In this document: positions 2,997 to 18,112 of the stretch, piece by piece
How positions within the stretch are numbered: the stretch's first letter is position 1
Layout: every line of letters begins with the position of its first letter
NCBI RefSeq assembly: GCF_001476815.1
Contig: NZ_LDSL01000144.1
Location: 1 to 39,648, forward strand
DNA: 39,648 bases
DNA from: Pseudacidovorax intermedius
Lineage (GTDB): Bacteria; Pseudomonadota; Gammaproteobacteria; Burkholderiales; Burkholderiaceae_C
Reading direction: 5' to 3'
Translations under genes and position numbers: made by a program
Notes under the pieces: model-generated
The model's database searches: none
Seen by the model: the letters and a program-made list of their open reading frames with translations, nothing else
Told to the model about the DNA's origin: nothing

Positions 2997-3076
2997 GGGC
3001 GCCTGCCGCGGGCCGCTGTCGCGGCTCGGCGTCTGCGCGGCGTCTGCTCGGCGCACATCGAGGCGCCGCCGTGCGT

Positions 3077-3565
3077 TCAGCCGGCCGCCTGGTCGTCCTG
3101 CTGCCTGGCCGGGTCGCCCCGGCCGTCGTCGCGCTTGATGAAGCTGATCTTGCCGTTGGGCTCGAGCACCGCCCAGTCCACGTCGCGCATGCTGGCGATG
3201 CCGGCGAGCCGCATCTCGGATTCGATCTCGGACCGGGTGAGCCTGTCGCGCCGCAGGCTGTGCGCCAGCAGCCGGCCATGCTGGATGATGACGCGGGGCT
3301 CGCCCTCCAGCAGCCGGGCCGCCTTGGGCGACAGGTAGGAAGCCCAGCTCAGCACCAGGCCCCAGAAGGCGAAGGTGCAGATGGCCAGCGTGGCGCCGGT
3401 CAGGCTGAAGTCGTTCTGCGTGATGCCCTGCTGGATCAGGTCGCCGACGACGACCATGACGATGAACTCGAAGGGCGTCATCTGCCCCAGCTCGCGCTTG
3501 CCGAGCACCCGCACCAGCAGGTACACGACGGCGAACATGACGGTGGCGCGGACGACGACTTCCAT
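3077..3565 (-). CDS. DUF421 (YetF-like) membrane protein
   Basis: This is a 162-aa protein. The N-terminal half has two to three membrane segments and the hallmark RVLGKRELGQMTPFEFIVMVVVGDLIQ, which defines the DUF421/YetF family. The C-terminal half is a soluble domain (EPRVIIQHGRLL..., EIESEMRLAGIASMRDVDWAVLEPNGKISFI), the usual YetF C-terminal domain. The biochemical role of the family is not firmly established; Bacillus members are linked to spore and membrane-lipid functions. The ATG at 3565 overlaps the stop of the upstream gene by one base (TGATG), so the two are translationally coupled. Confidence 0.85.
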   Translation of the reverse strand: MEVVVRATVMFAVVYLLVRVLGKRELGQMTPFEFIVMVVVGDLIQQGITQNDFSLTGATLAICTFAFWGLVLSWASYLSPKAARLLEGEPRVIIQHGRLLAHSLRRDRLTRSEIESEMRLAGIASMRDVDWAVLEPNGKISFIKRDDGRGDPARQQDDQAAG

Positions 3566-4110
3566 CAGGGCAGCACCCGCATCTGGCGCGGGGCGCGCAG
3601 CAGCACCCGGTCGCCGTCCATGACTTCCAGCTCGCCCGATAAGGTGCCGTGCAGGCGCGGGTTGACCTGGGCCGAGATCTTGACCAGCCGTTCCTTGCCG
3701 GCGGCCAGCGGGCCGAAGTCGAGCTGGAACCGCTCGCCGTCGCTGCTCTCGGATTCGGGCTGCGGAACCATGGCGTTGATGGTCACCTCTCGCCACAGCG
3801 CGGCGGGCACGCCGATCCGCAGCGTGGCGATGTCGCTGCCGGCACGGACCCGCAGGCGCGTCTCGTAGAAGTCGCCCGTGCGGATGGTGGTGGGCATCTC
3901 GACGTCGAGGGAATGCGGGGGGCCGTCGGCACGGTAGGTGTCGCGCTGCATGCCTGCGTGGCCCAGCACGCCGGAGAGGCCGAGCGTCACGACGGTGCTG
4001 AGGATGAGCAGGGACAGCGGATTGGCATGGCGCGACAGTCCGCCGCGCGGCAGGGTGTGCGGGCGAAGGATGCCGTCCGGTGGGTGGTGGAAAGGGTCGG
4101 GCTCGGCCAT
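3565..4110 (-). CDS. Single-pass membrane protein of unknown function, coupled to DUF421 gene
   Basis: This 181-aa protein has a short cytoplasmic N-terminus, one membrane segment at about residues 30-50 (PLSLLILSTVVTLGLSGVLG) and a periplasmic remainder rich in beta-type sequence (MPTTIRTGDFYETRLRV..., VPAALWREVTINAM). The layout recalls FixH-like or immunoglobulin-like periplasmic domains, but no family could be named with confidence. The one-base stop/start overlap with the DUF421 gene suggests that the two act together at the membrane. Confidence 0.65.
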   Translation of the reverse strand: MAEPDPFHHPPDGILRPHTLPRGGLSRHANPLSLLILSTVVTLGLSGVLGHAGMQRDTYRADGPPHSLDVEMPTTIRTGDFYETRLRVRAGSDIATLRIGVPAALWREVTINAMVPQPESESSDGERFQLDFGPLAAGKERLVKISAQVNPRLHGTLSGELEVMDGDRVLLRAPRQMRVLP

Positions 4111-10175: not shown

Positions 10176-12437
10176 TCACACCGCCGTTGCTGGATCTTGC
10201 CACCCGGCTGCCCCAGGCAGCCGCCGCGTCTGCCGAAGCCGGTCCGGCGACAGTGCGAGCAACGCCCGCCGGTCCTGCGCCGGAAGCCCGTGAGCACAAC
10301 ATGCCAGCAGCCGCTTGACCGCCTTGTAGACGCCACCGCGGCTCAAGCCGGCGGCCCGCGTGTCGGTCGGGTCGAACAGCAGCGGCAGGTGGGCGTTGGC
10401 GGGATCGCAGGGGTCGGCGGGCAAGCCGCAGCTTTGCAGCAGCATCGACAGGGCGGACACCAGAGGGGCGGGTACCGGCCGCGCCGCCAGGCGTTCGGCT
10501 TGCCGCGCCCTCGTGTTGAGTTGCCACTGCGTGCTGCCGCCGCCGGCCTGCGCTTCGGGTACGACCGACGCGCGGCGCCGAAGGTCGCCGCAACGGGCCA
10601 GTGCCAGTTCTCCAGGCCGCAAGCCGGTGGCCTGAAGCCATTCCGTGGCCCGCTGGGCACGGTGCAGGCCGCGACTTGCGGGCCTGCGCCCGGACAGGTG
10701 GCGGGCCAGTGCAGCTAGATCGGGGACACCGCTCGCATCGTCGCTGCTGCTCACAGCGTTGTTGGCCGCGACTTGTGGCTCCGCCGGCTCTGTCGCCCAG
10801 GCGCCTTCGCGGGCTTCTGTCGGCGCCGTGGCCCCGGGCGTCGCACTGGGTGGAGCCATCACCGCCGGATCGGGCGCGCTGCGATGGCCCGCAGACGTTT
10901 CCGTCGCCTGGCTTTCCTCTTCGGTGAGGCTCATAGCCTGCGCCGCTGCCGCCGATGCGAGCCCGGGCGAGGGATCGGCAGACAGATACCCCACTCGATG
11001 CAGGAAGCGGAACAGGCTGCGCAGCGCCGCGACGCAGCGTTGCAGCGAGGCGGGGCTCAGCGGACCCTCCAGGGGCCGCCAAAGGGGAGACCAGCGCTCC
11101 TGGTGACGCGGCCCGCACCATTCGGCCGGCGGGGTGCGCAGGAAGTCCACGAAGGCCGCACAGTCCCCGGCATCGACCGAGGACAGCGCCCTCCCCCGCT
11201 CCAGCACGGCCCAGAGCACGAGGCGTTCGGCCTCCTTCCGGTAGGCACGGCGCGTCTCCGCGGAGGCGCCATCGCCCCTGCGGCGGCCGCAGGCTGCCAG
11301 CCAGGCATCGATGGCGGCCAGATCGTCGGCCGCGGCGATCCGGCACTGCGCCGCCGGGGCACGGAACCGCCCCTCCGTGCCCCGCAGGGACGGCGGGATC
11401 ACGAGCTTGTCGAGCGGCCGCAGTGCCAGGGCAGGCGGCACCAGCGCCTCCAGCAAGGGCCGCGGCACCCGGGACATCGGGGAGAACACATGGGCGCCGA
11501 GCACCAGCCCCGTGTCCGCCTGGTGCACGCGCAGCCATTCGACGACACGCGCGGCCTTGGTCGGCCCCACGGCCGGCACCGCCCGCCACCAGCGCGCCCC
11601 GACCAGGTTGATGTGGACCGCCAGGTCCTGCAGGCTCGTGAAGCCCGCGGCCGCAATCCGTTCCGCCAGCAGAGGCCCCAGCCAGTCGCCCACCGGATCC
11701 GCAGGCCGCGGTGAGCGCGACGTCAGCCCTTCCAGCCAGGCCAGTGCTTCCAGCTGCCGCTCGATCAGCCGGCGGCGCTTGGACTGCCGCGCGGCGCCCT
11801 GCCCTCCTGCGCCGAAGGCTTCCTCATAAGCGGCGACCTGGTCCTCGATGGAGAAGTCCTCGAGCCCCCGTTCAGCGGCGAAGTCCTCGAGCGTCAGCGC
11901 GGCCGTCGCGGCCTCGTCCGAAGCGGCGCGGGCGTCCATGCGCACCAGCCGGGCCGTGCCGGGCCGCGCATGCCGGCGAGCGGCCGCGGCCAGCTCGTCG
12001 CGGTAGACCAGGATGGCGCGCCGGATGAGCCGGTCGTCGAGCCGGTCGTCCTCGCCCTGCATGTACCGCTTCCAGGCCTGGCGCTCGTCGATGCCCTGGA
12101 TGACCGCGCGCATGAAGGCGAAGTGGCCACGGTGCAGCGCACGGGAACGGCGCGTGTCCCTGCGGCGCGGCAGGGCAGCTACCGATGTTGCCGCAGGTCT
12201 GGGCACTGCGGACCCATGGCTCTCCAGGCGCCCCTCTCCCCCGCCCTCCCCCGCAAGTCGAGCAGGCGCCGAGTCGCGGGACTGGTTGCCCGCGTTCACC
12301 ACGTGCGCCGAATCGTCCGAGCCAGCATCGTCTACTGCCTTGCCAAGTCCACGCACACGCCCCGGCATTGCAGCCGTCGGCGCCTCGGAATGGGTGGGAT
12401 GAACGGTATGAACAGGCATGCCATGGTCTTTGCGCAT
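10176..12437 (-). CDS. Large DUF3701-type tyrosine integrase, truncated before the catalytic tyrosine
   Basis: This 753-aa protein is of the Burkholderiales phage-integrase type with an N-terminal DUF3701 domain (about residues 100-200: LHRGHFAFMRAVIQGIDERQAWKRYM, then RRHARPGTARLVRMD). A low-complexity N-terminus precedes it. A core-binding domain lies near residues 385-500 (ETRRAYRKEAERLVLWAV). Box I (ATGLRPGEL, Arg607) is intact. Box II is reached as LSPDRLRQTRR, so the histidine before it is Asp and the RHT histidine is Gln. The frame then stops within about 20 residues, and no LGH or tyrosine follows. Neither other frame restores the missing 50-60 residues. The upstream side is unusually AT-rich. 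Confidence 0.75.
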   Translation of the reverse strand: MRKDHGMPVHTVHPTHSEAPTAAMPGRVRGLGKAVDDAGSDDSAHVVNAGNQSRDSAPARLAGEGGGEGRLESHGSAVPRPAATSVAALPRRRDTRRSRALHRGHFAFMRAVIQGIDERQAWKRYMQGEDDRLDDRLIRRAILVYRDELAAAARRHARPGTARLVRMDARAASDEAATAALTLEDFAAERGLEDFSIEDQVAAYEEAFGAGGQGAARQSKRRRLIERQLEALAWLEGLTSRSPRPADPVGDWLGPLLAERIAAAGFTSLQDLAVHINLVGARWWRAVPAVGPTKAARVVEWLRVHQADTGLVLGAHVFSPMSRVPRPLLEALVPPALALRPLDKLVIPPSLRGTEGRFRAPAAQCRIAAADDLAAIDAWLAACGRRRGDGASAETRRAYRKEAERLVLWAVLERGRALSSVDAGDCAAFVDFLRTPPAEWCGPRHQERWSPLWRPLEGPLSPASLQRCVAALRSLFRFLHRVGYLSADPSPGLASAAAAQAMSLTEEESQATETSAGHRSAPDPAVMAPPSATPGATAPTEAREGAWATEPAEPQVAANNAVSSSDDASGVPDLAALARHLSGRRPASRGLHRAQRATEWLQATGLRPGELALARCGDLRRRASVVPEAQAGGGSTQWQLNTRARQAERLAARPVPAPLVSALSMLLQSCGLPADPCDPANAHLPLLFDPTDTRAAGLSRGGVYKAVKRLLACCAHGLPAQDRRALLALSPDRLRQTRRLPGAAGWQDPATAV

Positions 12438-13724: not shown

Positions 13725-13741
13725 GGCACGAGTTCATGGGC

Positions 13742-13756
13742 GTTGAACGGTTCAAC
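13742..13756. promoter_or_regulatory. Candidate parS site 1
   Basis: GTTGAACGGTTCAAC is a perfect 7-1-7 palindrome just downstream of the parB stop, between parB and its terminator. The same core occurs at 13930-13944 and 14886-14900. Flanks are also shared: read on the minus strand, this copy is GGGTGTTGAACC followed by GTTCAACGCCC. Confidence 0.7.
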
Positions 13757-13769
13757 ACCCCCAAGGGAC

Positions 13770-14852
13770 TCACTCAGAGTCCAGATGCCCCTGTAGCCAG
13801 GCAAGAAGGGCCGCCTGGCGCGCCTCGGTCAGAACGCCGGCATCGAAGCGCAAGGTGACACGGCCATCTGCCTCACCCGTCAGTACCGCGCCCTGCCCTG
13901 CCCTGCCGATGCGGCGCTCGGGCACGGGTGTTGAACGGTTCAACGGCTTCTGCGACTGCCCCAGCAGCACCTCCAGAACCTGCTTCGCGCTCAGCACCGC
14001 CTTTGCCGCCCGAAGCTCCTTTGCGCGGGCCACCAAACCTTCGGGATCGCGCTGCAGCACCTCACTGAGCGGCTGGGCCCAGCGGAACTGCACGTCCAGC
14101 GGAGACGGAAAAGCCTCGATCACCGAATCTGGCAGACGGGCGAGCGCAAGGCTTTTCGAGATCAGCGACAGGTCCACGCCCACCGACTCCGCCAGCTTGC
14201 GTTGCGACGCATACAGGCCGCTGTCCAGCGCCCGTCGGTACATCATTCCCTGCTCCCAGGCGCTCAGGTTCTTCCGGGCCCGGTTCTCGCGCTCCATGGC
14301 CTCGAACAGGCCCTTGTCGTCGATGTCGGCAATGATCGCCTGGACGGGCAACCCGAGTTCCAGGCAAGCGCGGTGCCGGCGGTGGCCGAAGACGAGTTCG
14401 TAGTCGGCATTGGCATCGGTGCCCGCCGCGAGGCCACGCACGCAGATGGGTTGGACGTTGGTACCACTCGCCGCGATGTCCGCACGCAACTCCTCATAGG
14501 CCTTGTCGGCCAGCGCGTCGGCATGGCGGTTGGCCCAGCGAGAGGCGCGGATCCGGCGGGGATCCAGCGCCTTCATCGGCACCGCACCGTCGAAGGCGCG
14601 CAGTTTGAGTCGCAGTTCTTCCGCCTCTTTCACGGCTGCTGACTGCGAGGCCATGAACACCGCCATCGATCCTGGCGCCGTCTTCGGGCGCGCTTCCGGC
14701 AATGCTGGTGCAACCGCCGAAGCCACCGCCGGTGCTGTCGCGGTTTCGGCGGGCGCCGACGTGACGGGTGACGGGCTGGACTCCGCGACAGGCACCGGCC
14801 GCACGGGCGGCAACTGGATCAGGCTGGCCTTGGCTGCGAGTTTTTTACTCAT
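13770..14852 (-). CDS. parB: ParB family DNA-binding partition protein
   Basis: This is a 360-aa centromere-binding protein of a type I partition system. The N-terminus (1-60) is flexible and Ala/Pro-rich. The CTPase/ParB-N domain follows (LDPRRIRASRWANR, then FGHRRHRACLELGL at about 155-168, the GxRRxRA motif). An HTH region spans about 212-240 (LYASQRKLAESVGVDLSLISKSLALARLPDSVIEAF), and a C-terminal dimerisation part ends in LLAWLQGHL. It would bind parS and, with ParA, segregate replicon copies. Its ATG overlaps the parA stop by 4 nt (ATGA). One of the three parS-like palindromes lies inside its coding sequence and another just after it. Confidence 0.95.
   Translation of the reverse strand: MSKKLAAKASLIQLPPVRPVPVAESSPSPVTSAPAETATAPAVASAVAPALPEARPKTAPGSMAVFMASQSAAVKEAEELRLKLRAFDGAVPMKALDPRRIRASRWANRHADALADKAYEELRADIAASGTNVQPICVRGLAAGTDANADYELVFGHRRHRACLELGLPVQAIIADIDDKGLFEAMERENRARKNLSAWEQGMMYRRALDSGLYASQRKLAESVGVDLSLISKSLALARLPDSVIEAFPSPLDVQFRWAQPLSEVLQRDPEGLVARAKELRAAKAVLSAKQVLEVLLGQSQKPLNRSTPVPERRIGRAGQGAVLTGEADGRVTLRFDAGVLTEARQAALLAWLQGHLDSE
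13930..13944. promoter_or_regulatory. Candidate parS site 2, inside parB
   Basis: GTTGAACGGTTCAAC, with the same left flank (CGGGT), lies within the 3' third of parB and encodes part of LNRSTPV. It is 188 bp from site 1. Siting within par coding sequence is common for ParB-bound centromeres. Confidence 0.7.
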
Positions 14853-16081
14853 CGGCGGGTCTCCTTAGTCGATGCCTGCACGGGTGTTGAACCGTTCAAC
14901 GCCCCCACCTGCCCGTTCCACACGGCGCGAATGGAACCTTCAATCTGGCCCACGAAGCTGTCGTAGGCATCACGGGCGCGCTTGAACGTCCGGGCGCTGC
15001 CGTCGTAGCGCGACACGTCGTACACGGTGCCGAATTCGGCACTGGCCACGCCGGTGACGGCTGTCTTGGGGATTTCCACGGGAAGCACCTTTTCGGCATA
15101 GGTCTGGCCGATCCACTGCCGGATGACCGTGCTGGCGGCGTCGGCCGAATCCACCCGAGCGAGCAGCACATGGATGAAGTCGAAGTGCTTGTCCAACCCG
15201 CGCTTGGTAAGCAACTCACCGGTGAGGTCCGAGAAGAGGCTCCAGAACTGCGAGGCAGAGGCAAAGTCCAGCGCGTTGGGCGGCAGCGGCATGATGATGC
15301 CGTTGGATGCCATGAAGGCATTGATCGTCGTGTACGACAGGGCAGGGGGGGTGTCGATGATGATGACGTCGTACTCGCTGCGCACGTCGTCGATGCCAAG
15401 GTCCAGCACCCGCCAGAACTCGAAGCCGGGTTCCTGGGTCTGCCGGGCCGGCAGCGCGAACTCTGCGCCGAACAGCACGGGTGCCGCGGCCACCAGGTCG
15501 ATGCCATCCCAGTAGGTTGAGCGGATCGCGTAGCGAATCGACGTCTCCGTCCCCATGGCCAGAGGGAGGATGGTGTCCTGCTCTTCCACCTCCGTGTCAG
15601 GAAGGATGCCGAACAGCGTGGTGAGCGAGCCCTGCGGATCGGTGTCGATGACCAGCACCCGATGGCCAAGCAACGACAGACCCTGAGCCAGGGTCACGGC
15701 GGTGGTGGTCTTGGAGACGCCGCCCTTGAAGTTGCCGATGGAAATGGTGATGGCCTCGCCACCCTCAGGGCGCAGCCGATCCTTGCGGTATTCGCGCACC
15801 CATTGCCGCGCTTCGGCCAATGTGAACTCACGGCGGCTGCCGGAAGGATTGAGCCGGCCGCTTGGAAGGTCTCCCTTGCCGAGCCGGTGCGAGATGGAGC
15901 CCTTCTCCATCTCGAGCAGGGCCGCCAGCTGGGAGAGGCTGAAGCCGGGAGCCTCCTTGCGTGCCGTCGGCGCAAGCATGGCCGAGCGGATTTGCTCCAT
16001 CATCGCCACGGCGCGTTCGGCCTGGGCGGCGATATCGGCGAGGCTGATGGGCCGAGGGGGGGGAAGAGGGGAAGATGCCAT
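14849..16081 (-). CDS. parA: ParA family partition ATPase with N-terminal HTH
   Basis: This 410-aa protein is a type Ia ParA. An N-terminal region with a helix-turn-helix (FSLSQLAALLEMEKGSISHRLGKGDLP, about 47-73) suggests autoregulation of the par promoter. The deviant Walker A box is GNFKGGVSKTTT (116-127), with signature Lys119 and P-loop Lys124. Walker A' is VIDTDPQGSLT and Walker B is VIIIDTPPAL. RBS AGGAG lies 7 nt before the ATG at 16081. It is divergent from rep across the candidate origin. Direct repeats CGGTAAACT/CCGTAAAGT just upstream of its start may be its operator. Confidence 0.95.
   Translation of the reverse strand: MASSPLPPPRPISLADIAAQAERAVAMMEQIRSAMLAPTARKEAPGFSLSQLAALLEMEKGSISHRLGKGDLPSGRLNPSGSRREFTLAEARQWVREYRKDRLRPEGGEAITISIGNFKGGVSKTTTAVTLAQGLSLLGHRVLVIDTDPQGSLTTLFGILPDTEVEEQDTILPLAMGTETSIRYAIRSTYWDGIDLVAAAPVLFGAEFALPARQTQEPGFEFWRVLDLGIDDVRSEYDVIIIDTPPALSYTTINAFMASNGIIMPLPPNALDFASASQFWSLFSDLTGELLTKRGLDKHFDFIHVLLARVDSADAASTVIRQWIGQTYAEKVLPVEIPKTAVTGVASAEFGTVYDVSRYDGSARTFKRARDAYDSFVGQIEGSIRAVWNGQVGALNGSTPVQASTKETRR
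14886..14900. promoter_or_regulatory. Candidate parS site 3, inside parA
   Basis: GTTGAACCGTTCAAC is the same 7-1-7 palindrome with C at the centre. It lies near the 3' end of parA, where it encodes part of LNGSTPV, with flanks CGGGT and GCCC matching site 1 read in reverse. Confidence 0.7.
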
Positions 16082-16352: not shown

Positions 16353-16602
16353 GGAGAGTTTTCGGTAGCCGAGGTGAGTGCATTCGTGATTCTGTGAACT
16401 CCTCTGTGATGGCTTTCAGGTGAGGGTTTTCGGGAGCGCATCGTTGGGGTGAGCATGGTTGCGCGAGGACTGGAGGCGACAGGCGCGCATCGGCGCCCGA
16501 TCGCGGGCTGCCAGACTTGGTGGAAGGGGGCTTTTCCGCGTCAGCCTGTCCGATCCGGGGAAGCCGAGCCATGCGGCCCGGCCAAAATCCCGAAAACTCT
16601 CC
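16353..16602. repeat. 13-bp inverted repeat pair in the origin region
   Basis: GGAGAGTTTTCGG at 16353-16365 recurs exactly as its reverse complement CCGAAAACTCTCC at 16590-16602. The left copy also forms a local palindrome, AAACTCT-GG-AGAGTTT (16346-16361). These are candidate Rep binding sites (iterons or an inverted operator). Confidence 0.6.
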
Positions 16603-16681
16603 GTTTGGATTTGCCGCCCAAGGTGTGAGCCCCAGACTCACGTGAGACTTTTCAGGATCAGTGCCGAACGCTTTCAGGTGA
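16412..16681 (+). repeat. 12-bp direct repeat pair in the origin region
   Basis: GCTTTCAGGTGA occurs at 16412-16423 and again at 16670-16681, the latter 33 bp before the rep ATG. A partial copy, CTTTTCAGGATCA, lies at 16648-16660. These fit iteron-like or rep operator sites. Confidence 0.55.
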
Positions 16682-16714: not shown

Positions 16715-18112
16715 ATGGCTCGAACCCCCCGAACGTCCCCGCTCGCACGCGCCCGCGGTTTCGACGGCGGCGGCACCGACATGACGGCGGCCGATGACGT
16801 CCAGCTGCTGCGCAAGGCGGTCAACACGCTCGCCATCGTGCCCAAGTCCACCCGCATCACCACGCTGGGCCGCAAGAGCTACAACGTGCTGCTGTACCTC
16901 GCGCAGGAGCAGGGGATGGAAAAAGACGTCTTCCGCACGCCGCTCGACGCGGTGGTGCGCGGCCTGGATTTCGACAGCAACGACCACGCCCTCATCAAGA
17001 AGCACCTGCGGGCCATGGTGTCGACCACCGTGGAATGGCAGTCGCCGACGAGCGGGGAGGGCGCCGCCTGGAACGTCAGCGGCCTGCTCGCCCATGCGCG
17101 CCTGAGCAAGGAGCGCGGCCAGGTCTGGGTGGAATGGTCCTACGCCGTCAACCTCAAGCAGGAGCTGCTGGATCCGAGCGTGTTCGCGCGGCTGAGGCTG
17201 GAAGTGATCAGCCAGCTGCGCACCCATGCCGGCGTGGTGCTGTACGAGATCTGCACCCGCTACAAGGACATCGGCCGCACCGCCCGTCAGCCCTGGCGCT
17301 GGTGGTACCCGGTGCTCAGCGGCAATCCGCACACCGAGAAGACCGAGCGGCTCGAATACCGCATCTTCAAGCGCGACACGCTCAAGCCGGCCATTGCCGA
17401 GGTCAATGCCATCACCGACCTGGAAATCGAACTGGTGGAGCACAAGCAGGGCCGCTTCATCGACGAGATCCAGTTCCACATCGGCCGCAAGAAGCCGGCG
17501 ACCGCGCTGGGCCTTGCCCGGGCGCCGGCACCGGTGGACATGGGCCTGGTCGGCCGGGCCATGCAGCTGGGCGTGGGCGAGGAGGCCTTCGACGCGATGA
17601 CCGTGGGCTGCGGCGAGGCCACCGTGCGCTCGGCGCTGGACGTGCTGGAGCGGCGCGTCAACACCGCCTATCCGGAGCCGCTGCGCGACCCGGTGCGCTA
17701 CCTCAAGGCGCTGCTGCTGCAGGGCAGCGAACGCGCGGAGGCGGCCGCCGAGGCCGCCGCTGCCCATCCGGCGGCCGTTGCGCTGGCCGCCCGCGAGCAG
17801 CAGGCGCAGCGCCGCCAGCGCTGGCAGGCCGAGTGGATCCGCCGCGCCAACGACCGCTGCCTGGCCGCCATCGAGGCCCTGTCGGAAGAGACGCAGCACG
17901 CGCTGGAGCAGCAACTGCTGCAGGCCCTGCAGGCCCGCGGCGCCCATCCGTCGATCATCAAGCGGCTGGGCACCAGCGGTTGGCACCATCCCATGGTGCG
18001 CCAAGAGATGCTGCGCTTTTTCGGCGATGCGACCTTCGGGCCCGGATGGGACAAGCCGGGGGCCGAAGACCTGCTGGAGATCGCCACGGAGATGGGCGGG
18101 GAAGAGGGCTGA
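16715..18112 (+). CDS. rep: Rep_3 family plasmid/chromid replication initiator
   Basis: This 465-aa protein has the tandem winged-helix layout of Rep_3 (RepB/RepE-type) initiators. The first WH domain starts at about residue 31 (LLRKAVNTLAIVPKSTRITTLGRKSYNVLLYLAQ). The second runs through the typical LRTHAGVVLYEICTRYKDIGRT...WWYPVLSG and LKPAIAEVNAITDLEIELVEHKQGRFIDEIQFHI. A long helical C-terminal extension (about 300-465) is typical of Burkholderiales initiators. The start at 16715 has little Shine-Dalgarno; an alternative ATG is at 16781. It is transcribed away from parA across the repeat-rich gap, the classic rep/par layout of a large plasmid or second chromosome. Confidence 0.9.
   Translation: MARTPRTSPLARARGFDGGGTDMTAADDVQLLRKAVNTLAIVPKSTRITTLGRKSYNVLLYLAQEQGMEKDVFRTPLDAVVRGLDFDSNDHALIKKHLRAMVSTTVEWQSPTSGEGAAWNVSGLLAHARLSKERGQVWVEWSYAVNLKQELLDPSVFARLRLEVISQLRTHAGVVLYEICTRYKDIGRTARQPWRWWYPVLSGNPHTEKTERLEYRIFKRDTLKPAIAEVNAITDLEIELVEHKQGRFIDEIQFHIGRKKPATALGLARAPAPVDMGLVGRAMQLGVGEEAFDAMTVGCGEATVRSALDVLERRVNTAYPEPLRDPVRYLKALLLQGSERAEAAAEAAAAHPAAVALAAREQQAQRRQRWQAEWIRRANDRCLAAIEALSEETQHALEQQLLQALQARGAHPSIIKRLGTSGWHHPMVRQEMLRFFGDATFGPGWDKPGAEDLLEIATEMGGEEG

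Follow-up and report, generated by a model that had tools for sequence, protein, structure and literature searches.

A repeated palindrome in and beside parAB

We analysed a window of 39,648 nucleotides from Pseudacidovorax intermedius (contig NZ_LDSL01000144.1; "the window" is this whole stretch) that carries a parAB locus and three exact copies of a 15-bp palindrome, GTTGAACSGTTCAAC, a candidate ParB-read centromere (parS). The gene layout is that of a type I ParABS system, with a Walker-type ParA adjoining a ParB that has ParB_N and helix-turn-helix (HTH) domains, and the two genes overlap by ATGA. The locus comprises the following features:

13742-13756 (core; extended, about 13739-13759), no strand: candidate parS site 1, exact match, 13 bp 3' of the parB stop codon
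13770-14852, minus strand: parB, 360 aa, ParB_N plus SopB-type HTH, recognition helix 228-238
13930-13944, no strand: candidate parS site 2, exact match, parB codons 303-308, in the linker between the HTH and the C-terminal domain
14849-16081, minus strand: parA, 410 aa, ParA/AAA_31 ATPase extended at the N-terminus by about 110 residues
14886-14900, no strand: candidate parS site 3, exact match, 3' end of parA, codons 394-399

ParB matches the Pfam families PF02195 (6e-8) and PF18090 (3.3e-7), and Foldseek aligns its AlphaFold2 model with the SopB-DNA structure 3mkz at a target-normalised template modelling (TM) score of 0.83. The cytidine triphosphate (CTP)-binding motif of ParB is GxRR; the window ParB has G156 H157 R158 R159, residues that are invariant across 30 aligned ParBs. 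ParA matches PF13614 (1e-33, residues 112-286), and no HTH family was matched by Pfam in the residues before this domain; in the type Ia subclass (SopA/SopB-like), ParA has an autoregulatory N-terminal HTH.

The original prediction placed the three copies after parB, inside parB and inside parA and noticed no other full copy. The exact-match search found all three in these places, and the window holds no further match when up to two mismatches are allowed. In 100 shuffles of the window, the mean was 0.01 copies of GTTGAACSGTTCAAC and no shuffle reached three. Copies spread over the genome had been named as one observation that would count against a centromere. A search of the whole genome (5,546,132 bases in 295 contigs) found the sequence only at the same three places, all in or beside parAB, and the reversed-sequence control had no match in that genome.

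Shared flanking bases had also been noted. The sharing held, but their status as mere flanks did not: they belong to the palindrome itself. Across 131 GTTGAAC sites of 38 ParBs, the outward flanks on both sides are T in 88%, G in 88% and G in 81%, and the centre base is G or C in 130. Judged from these sequences, the whole palindrome spans about 21 bp, GGTGTTGAACSGTTCAACACC, against 15 bp for the core, and the three copies in the window fit it imperfectly. This extent, and the wider family of sites described below, go beyond the first reading.

Both coding copies (sites 2 and 3) encode LN[R/G]ST. Site 2 falls in linker residues 302-308, whose predicted local distance difference test (pLDDT) values are below 50 in the AlphaFold2 model, and site 3 occupies the same parA position in the eight relatives' ParA tails listed. 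We compared five parB genes from Pseudacidovorax in which site 2 is retained. Conserved residues have the same codon in all five genes at 63 of 252 places outside the site and at 4 of 5 inside it. The same genes share only two identical runs of at least 14 nt, a 26-mer and exactly the 15-mer. A sixth parB from the genus (L194) has lost the perfect site 2, with CTG in place of TTG. Codon identity inside site 2 and the 15-mer run support the earlier suggestion that the DNA rather than the protein is selected.

The motif follows one clade of ParB. Named ParB relatives at 78-80% identity are from Pseudacidovorax, and 7 of 15 genomes of this genus (the window's included) carry the motif in two to three copies each. 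These seven are exactly the genomes whose ParB is at least 67% identical to the window's; the remaining eight have ParBs at most 48% identical (four genomes) or none (four genomes). The motif occurs in 23 of 399 family genomes (reversed control, 3 of 399, once each), and in 22 of the 23 the most window-like ParB contains it or is no more than about 2 kb away. When the site alone was used in a blastn search of 7.3 Gb of plasmids, three records were returned: two match exactly and one at 91% (E 4). When the same collection is ranked by ParB match, these records come 1, 2 and 5, and the third (L151) also has two exact 15-bp copies. In relatives, the contig or plasmid that carries the locus reaches 0.3-0.7 Mb, as in Variovorax paradoxus VAI-C (293 kb) and Ideonella dechloratans (709 kb). 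In a search across the order, 12 of 399 genomes had relatives at E up to 1e-35, and 10 of these genomes belong to families other than the window's. Because the window ParB was the sole query, the set of scanned genome contigs leans to close relatives.

One related locus is filed oddly. L241 (NZ_CP084759, Shinella sp. XGS7, UNVERIFIED_ORG) has a Burkholderiales-type par locus on a plasmid filed under an alphaproteobacterium, and its taxonomic label may be wrong. In viral contigs, 71 stretches carry the motif; 70 have a single copy and were treated as chance, although in one of them, L142, the flanks also fit at 5 of 6 bases. The other stretch, L137 (IMGVR_UViG_3300032242_002925), has three. Between 2282 and 4232 it holds five copies of GGTGTTGAACNGTTCAACA (any centre base), one of them in an open reading frame as VLNGSTA. 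L137 is phage-like, with a terminase-like open reading frame judged by eye, and its 6.5 kb include no ParB. It could be either a phage-plasmid or a phage using ParB borrowed from a host replicon.

Site variation and the ParB recognition helix

Other ParBs in the same genomes go with palindromes of other half-sites, built as G-NNNN-A-C arms around one central base. At 39 loci with other ParBs, we scanned for at least two copies of one perfect palindrome with 7-base arms. A spacer of 1 gave such palindromes at 30 loci, spacers of 0 or 2 at none and a spacer of 4 at one; shuffles gave none. Matches with spacers of 3, 5, 7 and 9 (24, 19, 11 and 4) represent the same axis extended. By the repeat criterion, 93 of 112 sequence-distinct ParBs have a half-site. 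There are 28 different half-sites, of which 26 have G at place 1, 24 have A at place 6 and 26 have C at place 7. The 55 ParBs whose half-site is not GTTGAAC have flanks of similar kind, though weaker (T 66%, G 81%, G 71%), with G or C as the centre base in 127 of 156 sites.

With 41 further loci added, an odd axis (spacer 1, 3 or 5) is present at 124 of 153 loci, 116 of them by spacer 1. Counted once per 95%-identity group, 120 of 145 ParBs have an odd axis and one has an even axis. Even-axis (Bsr-type) palindromes were rejected for these loci, since the single case among the 153 (L156) is GC-rich and probably due to chance. The five outer bases occur in 35 versions, one probably a chance find (CTCTCCC at L237/L274). 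Among 78 family sites inside parB, 27 lie near residues 140-144, 39 at 300-314 and 12 elsewhere (8 of these at the gene start). These positions are alike for GTTGAAC and other half-sites, so the place of a site is often kept while its letters differ. Plasmid loci of Paraburkholderia sabiae (ParB match 28.7%) and Burkholderia aenigmatica (39.4% over a fifth of the query) yielded no repeated palindrome when arms of 6 or 7 bases were combined with spacers of 0-6. At L306, positions 3019-3683 hold 18 tandem copies of GTGATGC-N5-GCATCAC with a 38-bp period near a family ParB whose helix predicts GAnG, an array that resembles sopC.

We next related the half-sites to the protein sequences of 101 ParBs. 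Base 2 covaried best with ParB residue 228, base 3 with 229, base 4 with 227 and base 5 with 230, and all four residues lie where the recognition helix begins. High ranks also went to columns in the variable N-terminal part of ParB, which shows the background created by shared ancestry. Residue 230 pairs with base 5 as Leu with A (35/35), Asn with T (18/18), Asp with G (20/20), Trp with A (9/9) and Ala with A (8/9). For residue 227 and base 4, the pairs are Asp with G (73/73), Gln with C (6/7), Asn with T (3/3) and Ser with A (11/14), the three exceptions to Ser all following Arg226. Residues 229 and 232 jointly pair with base 3: Ser-Ser with T (35/37), Ser-Gly with G (14/15) and Thr-Arg with A (6/6). 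At base 6, His258 goes with C (9/9) and Trp258 with A (87/89). His228 goes with T, not G, at base 2 where base 3 is G (L292, L293). ParBs with Lys226 (L303, L315, L316) have C at base 5 despite Leu230, a sub-code that depends on residue 226.

Distances between sites correlated with distances between ParB HTH domains at 0.76 and between ParA N-terminal domains at 0.51 (4950 pairs, 100 of the 101 ParBs). For the 3795 pairs whose ParBs are more than 50% different, the correlations were 0.64 for the HTH, 0.46 for whole ParB, 0.32 for whole ParA and 0.12 for the ParA N-terminal domain. By these comparisons, the site tracks the ParB HTH and not the ParA N-terminal domain, and covariation links its variable bases to residues 226-230 and 232.

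Rules for bases 2, 3, 4 and 5 were derived from the 101 ParBs and fixed before any test locus was fetched; the pre-written rule for base 3 was not scored in the first test. We fetched 48 loci and dropped seven whose ParB was at least 85% identical to a training ParB. Of the remaining 41, 23 had at least two perfect copies and formed the scored set (22 groups at 85% identity). Over these 23 new ParBs, 61 of 67 base calls were right: 22/23 for base 5 (nearest neighbour, 20), 20/22 for base 4 (19) and 19/22 for base 2 (17). Where rule and nearest neighbour disagreed, the rule was right in 7 of 11 cases. Nine loci with a single frame-like palindrome gave 8/9, 8/9 and 6/9 for bases 5, 4 and 2. Three loci (L274, L279 and L313) are identical to training loci without an assigned site; none is in the scored 23 and two are among the nine single-copy loci.

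Tables from the same 101 ParBs, with keys chosen after this test, scored 20/20, 22/22, 19/21 and 22/23 for bases 2, 3, 4 and 5 on the first-test set, leaving 3, 1, 2 and 0 unseen keys. The tables were then frozen and applied to 20 further loci, 15 of which had at least two copies. All 52 calls at these 15 loci were right (9/9, 15/15, 13/13 and 15/15 for bases 2 to 5, with 6, 0, 2 and 0 unseen keys). The other five showed no repeated site, and L381 shows nothing like the prediction. With L370 and L372 set aside, which are 99-100% identical to earlier ParBs, the other 13 ParBs are all below 70% identity to every earlier one and fall into 8 groups at that threshold; their score was 44/44. Six of the 13 form one group from one genus of another family, and their closest earlier ParBs are 41-46% identical. 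In five cases that closest ParB uses GTTGAAC; even so, bases 3, 4 and 5 of GTGGTAC were predicted for the group.

We also asked how often sites coincide within one assembly. Four multi-replicon assemblies hold 32 ParBs with assigned sites (10, 8, 7 and 7), and no half-site is shared within an assembly, against 5.8 expected collisions (p ~0.0001); nine fetched ParBs of these assemblies had no assigned site and were left out. Without the two assignments that rest on a single perfect copy (L164, with three near-copies, and L310), the count was 0 against 5.3 expected (p 0.00075).

Centromere, operator or by-product

The link to one clade of ParB, the plasmid search and the covariation between site and recognition helix all support the proposal of a parS. 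From this sequence evidence, we put at roughly 93% the probability that the three palindromes are the ParB-read centromere of a low-copy secondary replicon of Pseudacidovorax. ParB binding of the site, CTP-driven loading and segregation are known for ParABS systems in general and, by analogy, would be expected here. A ParB dimer would grip the site with one HTH per 7-bp arm (GTTGAAC). The four variable bases would be read by residues 226-230 and 232, where the recognition helix begins, and the fixed bases (outer GGTG, inner AC) would be a frame that most of the ParB family shares. Once loaded, ParB would form the partition complex that ParA moves. Different variable bases on each replicon of one genome would keep the partition systems apart.

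ParB could bind these sites mainly as operators that tune parAB expression, with little or no use in partition. Their position in and around parAB fits this, and a silent change in the parB-internal parS of Burkholderia cenocepacia c2 is presumed by the authors of PMC4948915 to raise parB expression. However, only 7 of the 131 GTTGAAC-type sites lie upstream of parA, the expected place of an operator (~0.65 kb scanned), with 32 in parA and 51 downstream of parB at up to 1.5 kb (1.9 kb scanned). Centromere-like arrays also occur, with 9 copies at L212 and the 18 in tandem at the sister system L306. A mainly regulatory role is on this evidence improbable. We give even less credence to the idea that the palindromes are not ParB sites at all and serve as autorepression operators for the N-terminal domain of ParA. 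The ~110 residues that precede the ATPase domain could house such a function, and ParA and ParB are co-inherited, so that ParA distance correlates with the site overall (r 0.51-0.61). Among distant pairs, however, the correlation falls to 0.12 for the ParA N-terminal domain and 0.32 for whole ParA, against 0.64 for the ParB HTH, and single bases are predicted from ParB helix residues. The comparison of ParA and ParB distances led us to reject ParA as the binding protein.

That two of the three copies are coding and encode LN[R/G]ST could also reflect chance or protein constraint, either through a repeated LNxSTPV peptide or through a word common in the genome. Such an origin has a negligible probability: it is refuted by the shuffles (mean 0.01), by the count of three places in 5.5 Mb and by codon identity, with synonymous bases frozen in the site and the same DNA at non-coding places in relatives.

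Several observations weigh against reading the palindromes as centromeres recognised through such a code. One genome, G406, has the motif without a window-like ParB; its lone copy is treated as chance. By the criterion used, 25 of 145 ParBs (29 of 153 loci) have no repeated odd-axis palindrome. The first test missed six calls, at L303 (base 5), L312 and L314 (base 4) and L292, L293 and L312 (base 2). Related sequences are also not independent. FastTree was run with the recognition helix left out; the resulting tree has at least 39 changes of the half-site and 16 of base 5, and its supported branches give 3-5 independent pairs per rule. None of these pairs was contrary, some showed no change and none of the rules reached p <0.05, the pairs being too few; among the rules listed, T at base 5 with Asn230 held in 5/5 pairs and T at base 4 with Asn227 on average in 1.5/3. 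Finally, two of the four multi-replicon assemblies have 6-8% estimated contamination, and the other two alone give 0 against 1.9 expected collisions (p 0.09).

With these points taken into account, it is likely that, across a large family of ParBs on Burkholderiales secondary replicons, about six residues (226-230 and 232) set the four variable bases of a 15-bp centromere with a fixed frame, with some 35 centromere types and up to ten per assembly without a repeat. For a new centromere specificity, and with it a plasmid incompatibility group, to arise, ParB and parS must change together without loss of the replicon. The family offers many natural ParB-site pairs that are few residues and bases apart, often at the same places in parB. 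If the code is true, the centromeres of large plasmids and chromids, and the compatibility of replicons, would be predictable from ParB sequence alone. The steps of a specificity switch would become testable, and orthogonal ParB-parS labels could serve imaging.

The surrounding module and known partition systems

A replication gene and repeats adjoin parA:

16354-16659 (copies at 16354, 16422 and 16644), no strand: iteron-like 16-nt repeats, GAGAGTTTTCGGTAGC, between parA and rep
16715-18112, plus strand: rep, Rep_3 replication initiator, 465 aa, PF21205 (2.2e-10) and PF01051 (4.5e-5)

The direct repeats are 75-100% identical to the reference copy and inverted copies are also present; from its sequence, 16354-16659 is a probable replication origin region. 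Downstream of parB, window positions 10176-12437 encode a 753-aa recombinase with a DUF3701 phage-integrase domain, and integrase-type genes also lie close to par loci on several related plasmids. At L023 (379-1158) and L033 (G007:C32), the full parAB of the genome is adjoined by a ParB-like fragment and by another ParA relative, which is shorter (49% over residues 224-393); the two are perhaps the remnant of a second module.

As in ParABS systems, the cis sites are several, clustered at parAB and, by association and covariation, specific to the cognate ParB. The ParB DNA-binding domain is like that of F plasmid SopB (PF18090; PDB 3mkz, 3mky), and the sopC repeat unit and spacing differ from the window sites. 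KorB structures 8qa9 and 1r71 are among the Foldseek matches of the window ParB. KorB-OB of IncP plasmids is an odd palindrome with an S centre, and its half-site and frame are other than here; at E up to 0.001, the window ParB matches no Pfam family other than ParB_N and SoPB_HTH. The repABC/RepB systems of Alphaproteobacteria have related ParBs, at about 28-43% identity over part of their length among the matches listed. They place several replicon-specific palindromes in one cell, with a gene order and site consensus that differ from those here.

In the literature searched, six 15-mers of this site family were not found, and an earlier search found, among the matches listed, only a 10-mer. 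The terms ParB, parS, plasmid, Comamonadaceae and palindrom were not found together in one paper. According to PMC6015842, a supplementary table gives putative parS sites of its Polaromonas par loci, so some relatives' sites may have been published already. That paper describes the ParAs of its Polaromonas plasmids as being without an N-terminal HTH, and one such plasmid is in our set (L247).

The site was originally held to differ from the chromosomal parS and from the Burkholderia secondary-chromosome sites, and both distinctions stand: these two, the nearest described sites, have an even axis. PMC5450999 describes the Bsr sites, on secondary chromosomes and plasmids of Burkholderiales, as even palindromes of 16 bp with CG at the centre. 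They resemble the present sites in being short, replicon-specific palindromes of ParABS systems on secondary replicons of the same order. By that published description they are set apart, since the palindromes here are odd, with a 15-bp core (~21 bp in full), a one-base centre and the frame GGTG-NNNN-AC; as given above, the odd axis was found for 120 of 145 ParBs and the even axis for one. A parS inside parB is not new, because B. cenocepacia c2 and p1 have such sites (PMC4948915).

A further comparison is with chromosomal parS and the Noc-binding site (NBS). The window site is GTTGAACSGTTCAAC, and the chromosomal parS is TGTTTCACGTGAAACA. Counted from the G of GTTTCAC, the bases of parS and of the NBS presumably follow the same frame as here. 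The half-site GTTTCAC fits it (G first, A sixth), both groups of proteins have ParB_N plus HTH, and specificity residues lie in and after the HTH (PMC7383237, PMC5450999). According to PMC7383237, residues 173 and 201 of Caulobacter ParB/Noc set bases 1 and 6 of parS/NBS. From the Spo0J alignment and the conserved residues that the paper names, we infer that window residues 227, 228 and 230 correspond to Caulobacter 172, 173 and 175. On this correspondence, residue 228 covaries here with base 2 and not with base 1. Chromosomal parS and the NBS have no spacer base and one conserved site, whereas the present family has dozens of variants and a one-base centre. The family seems to share the parS/NBS frame with one base inserted at the centre.

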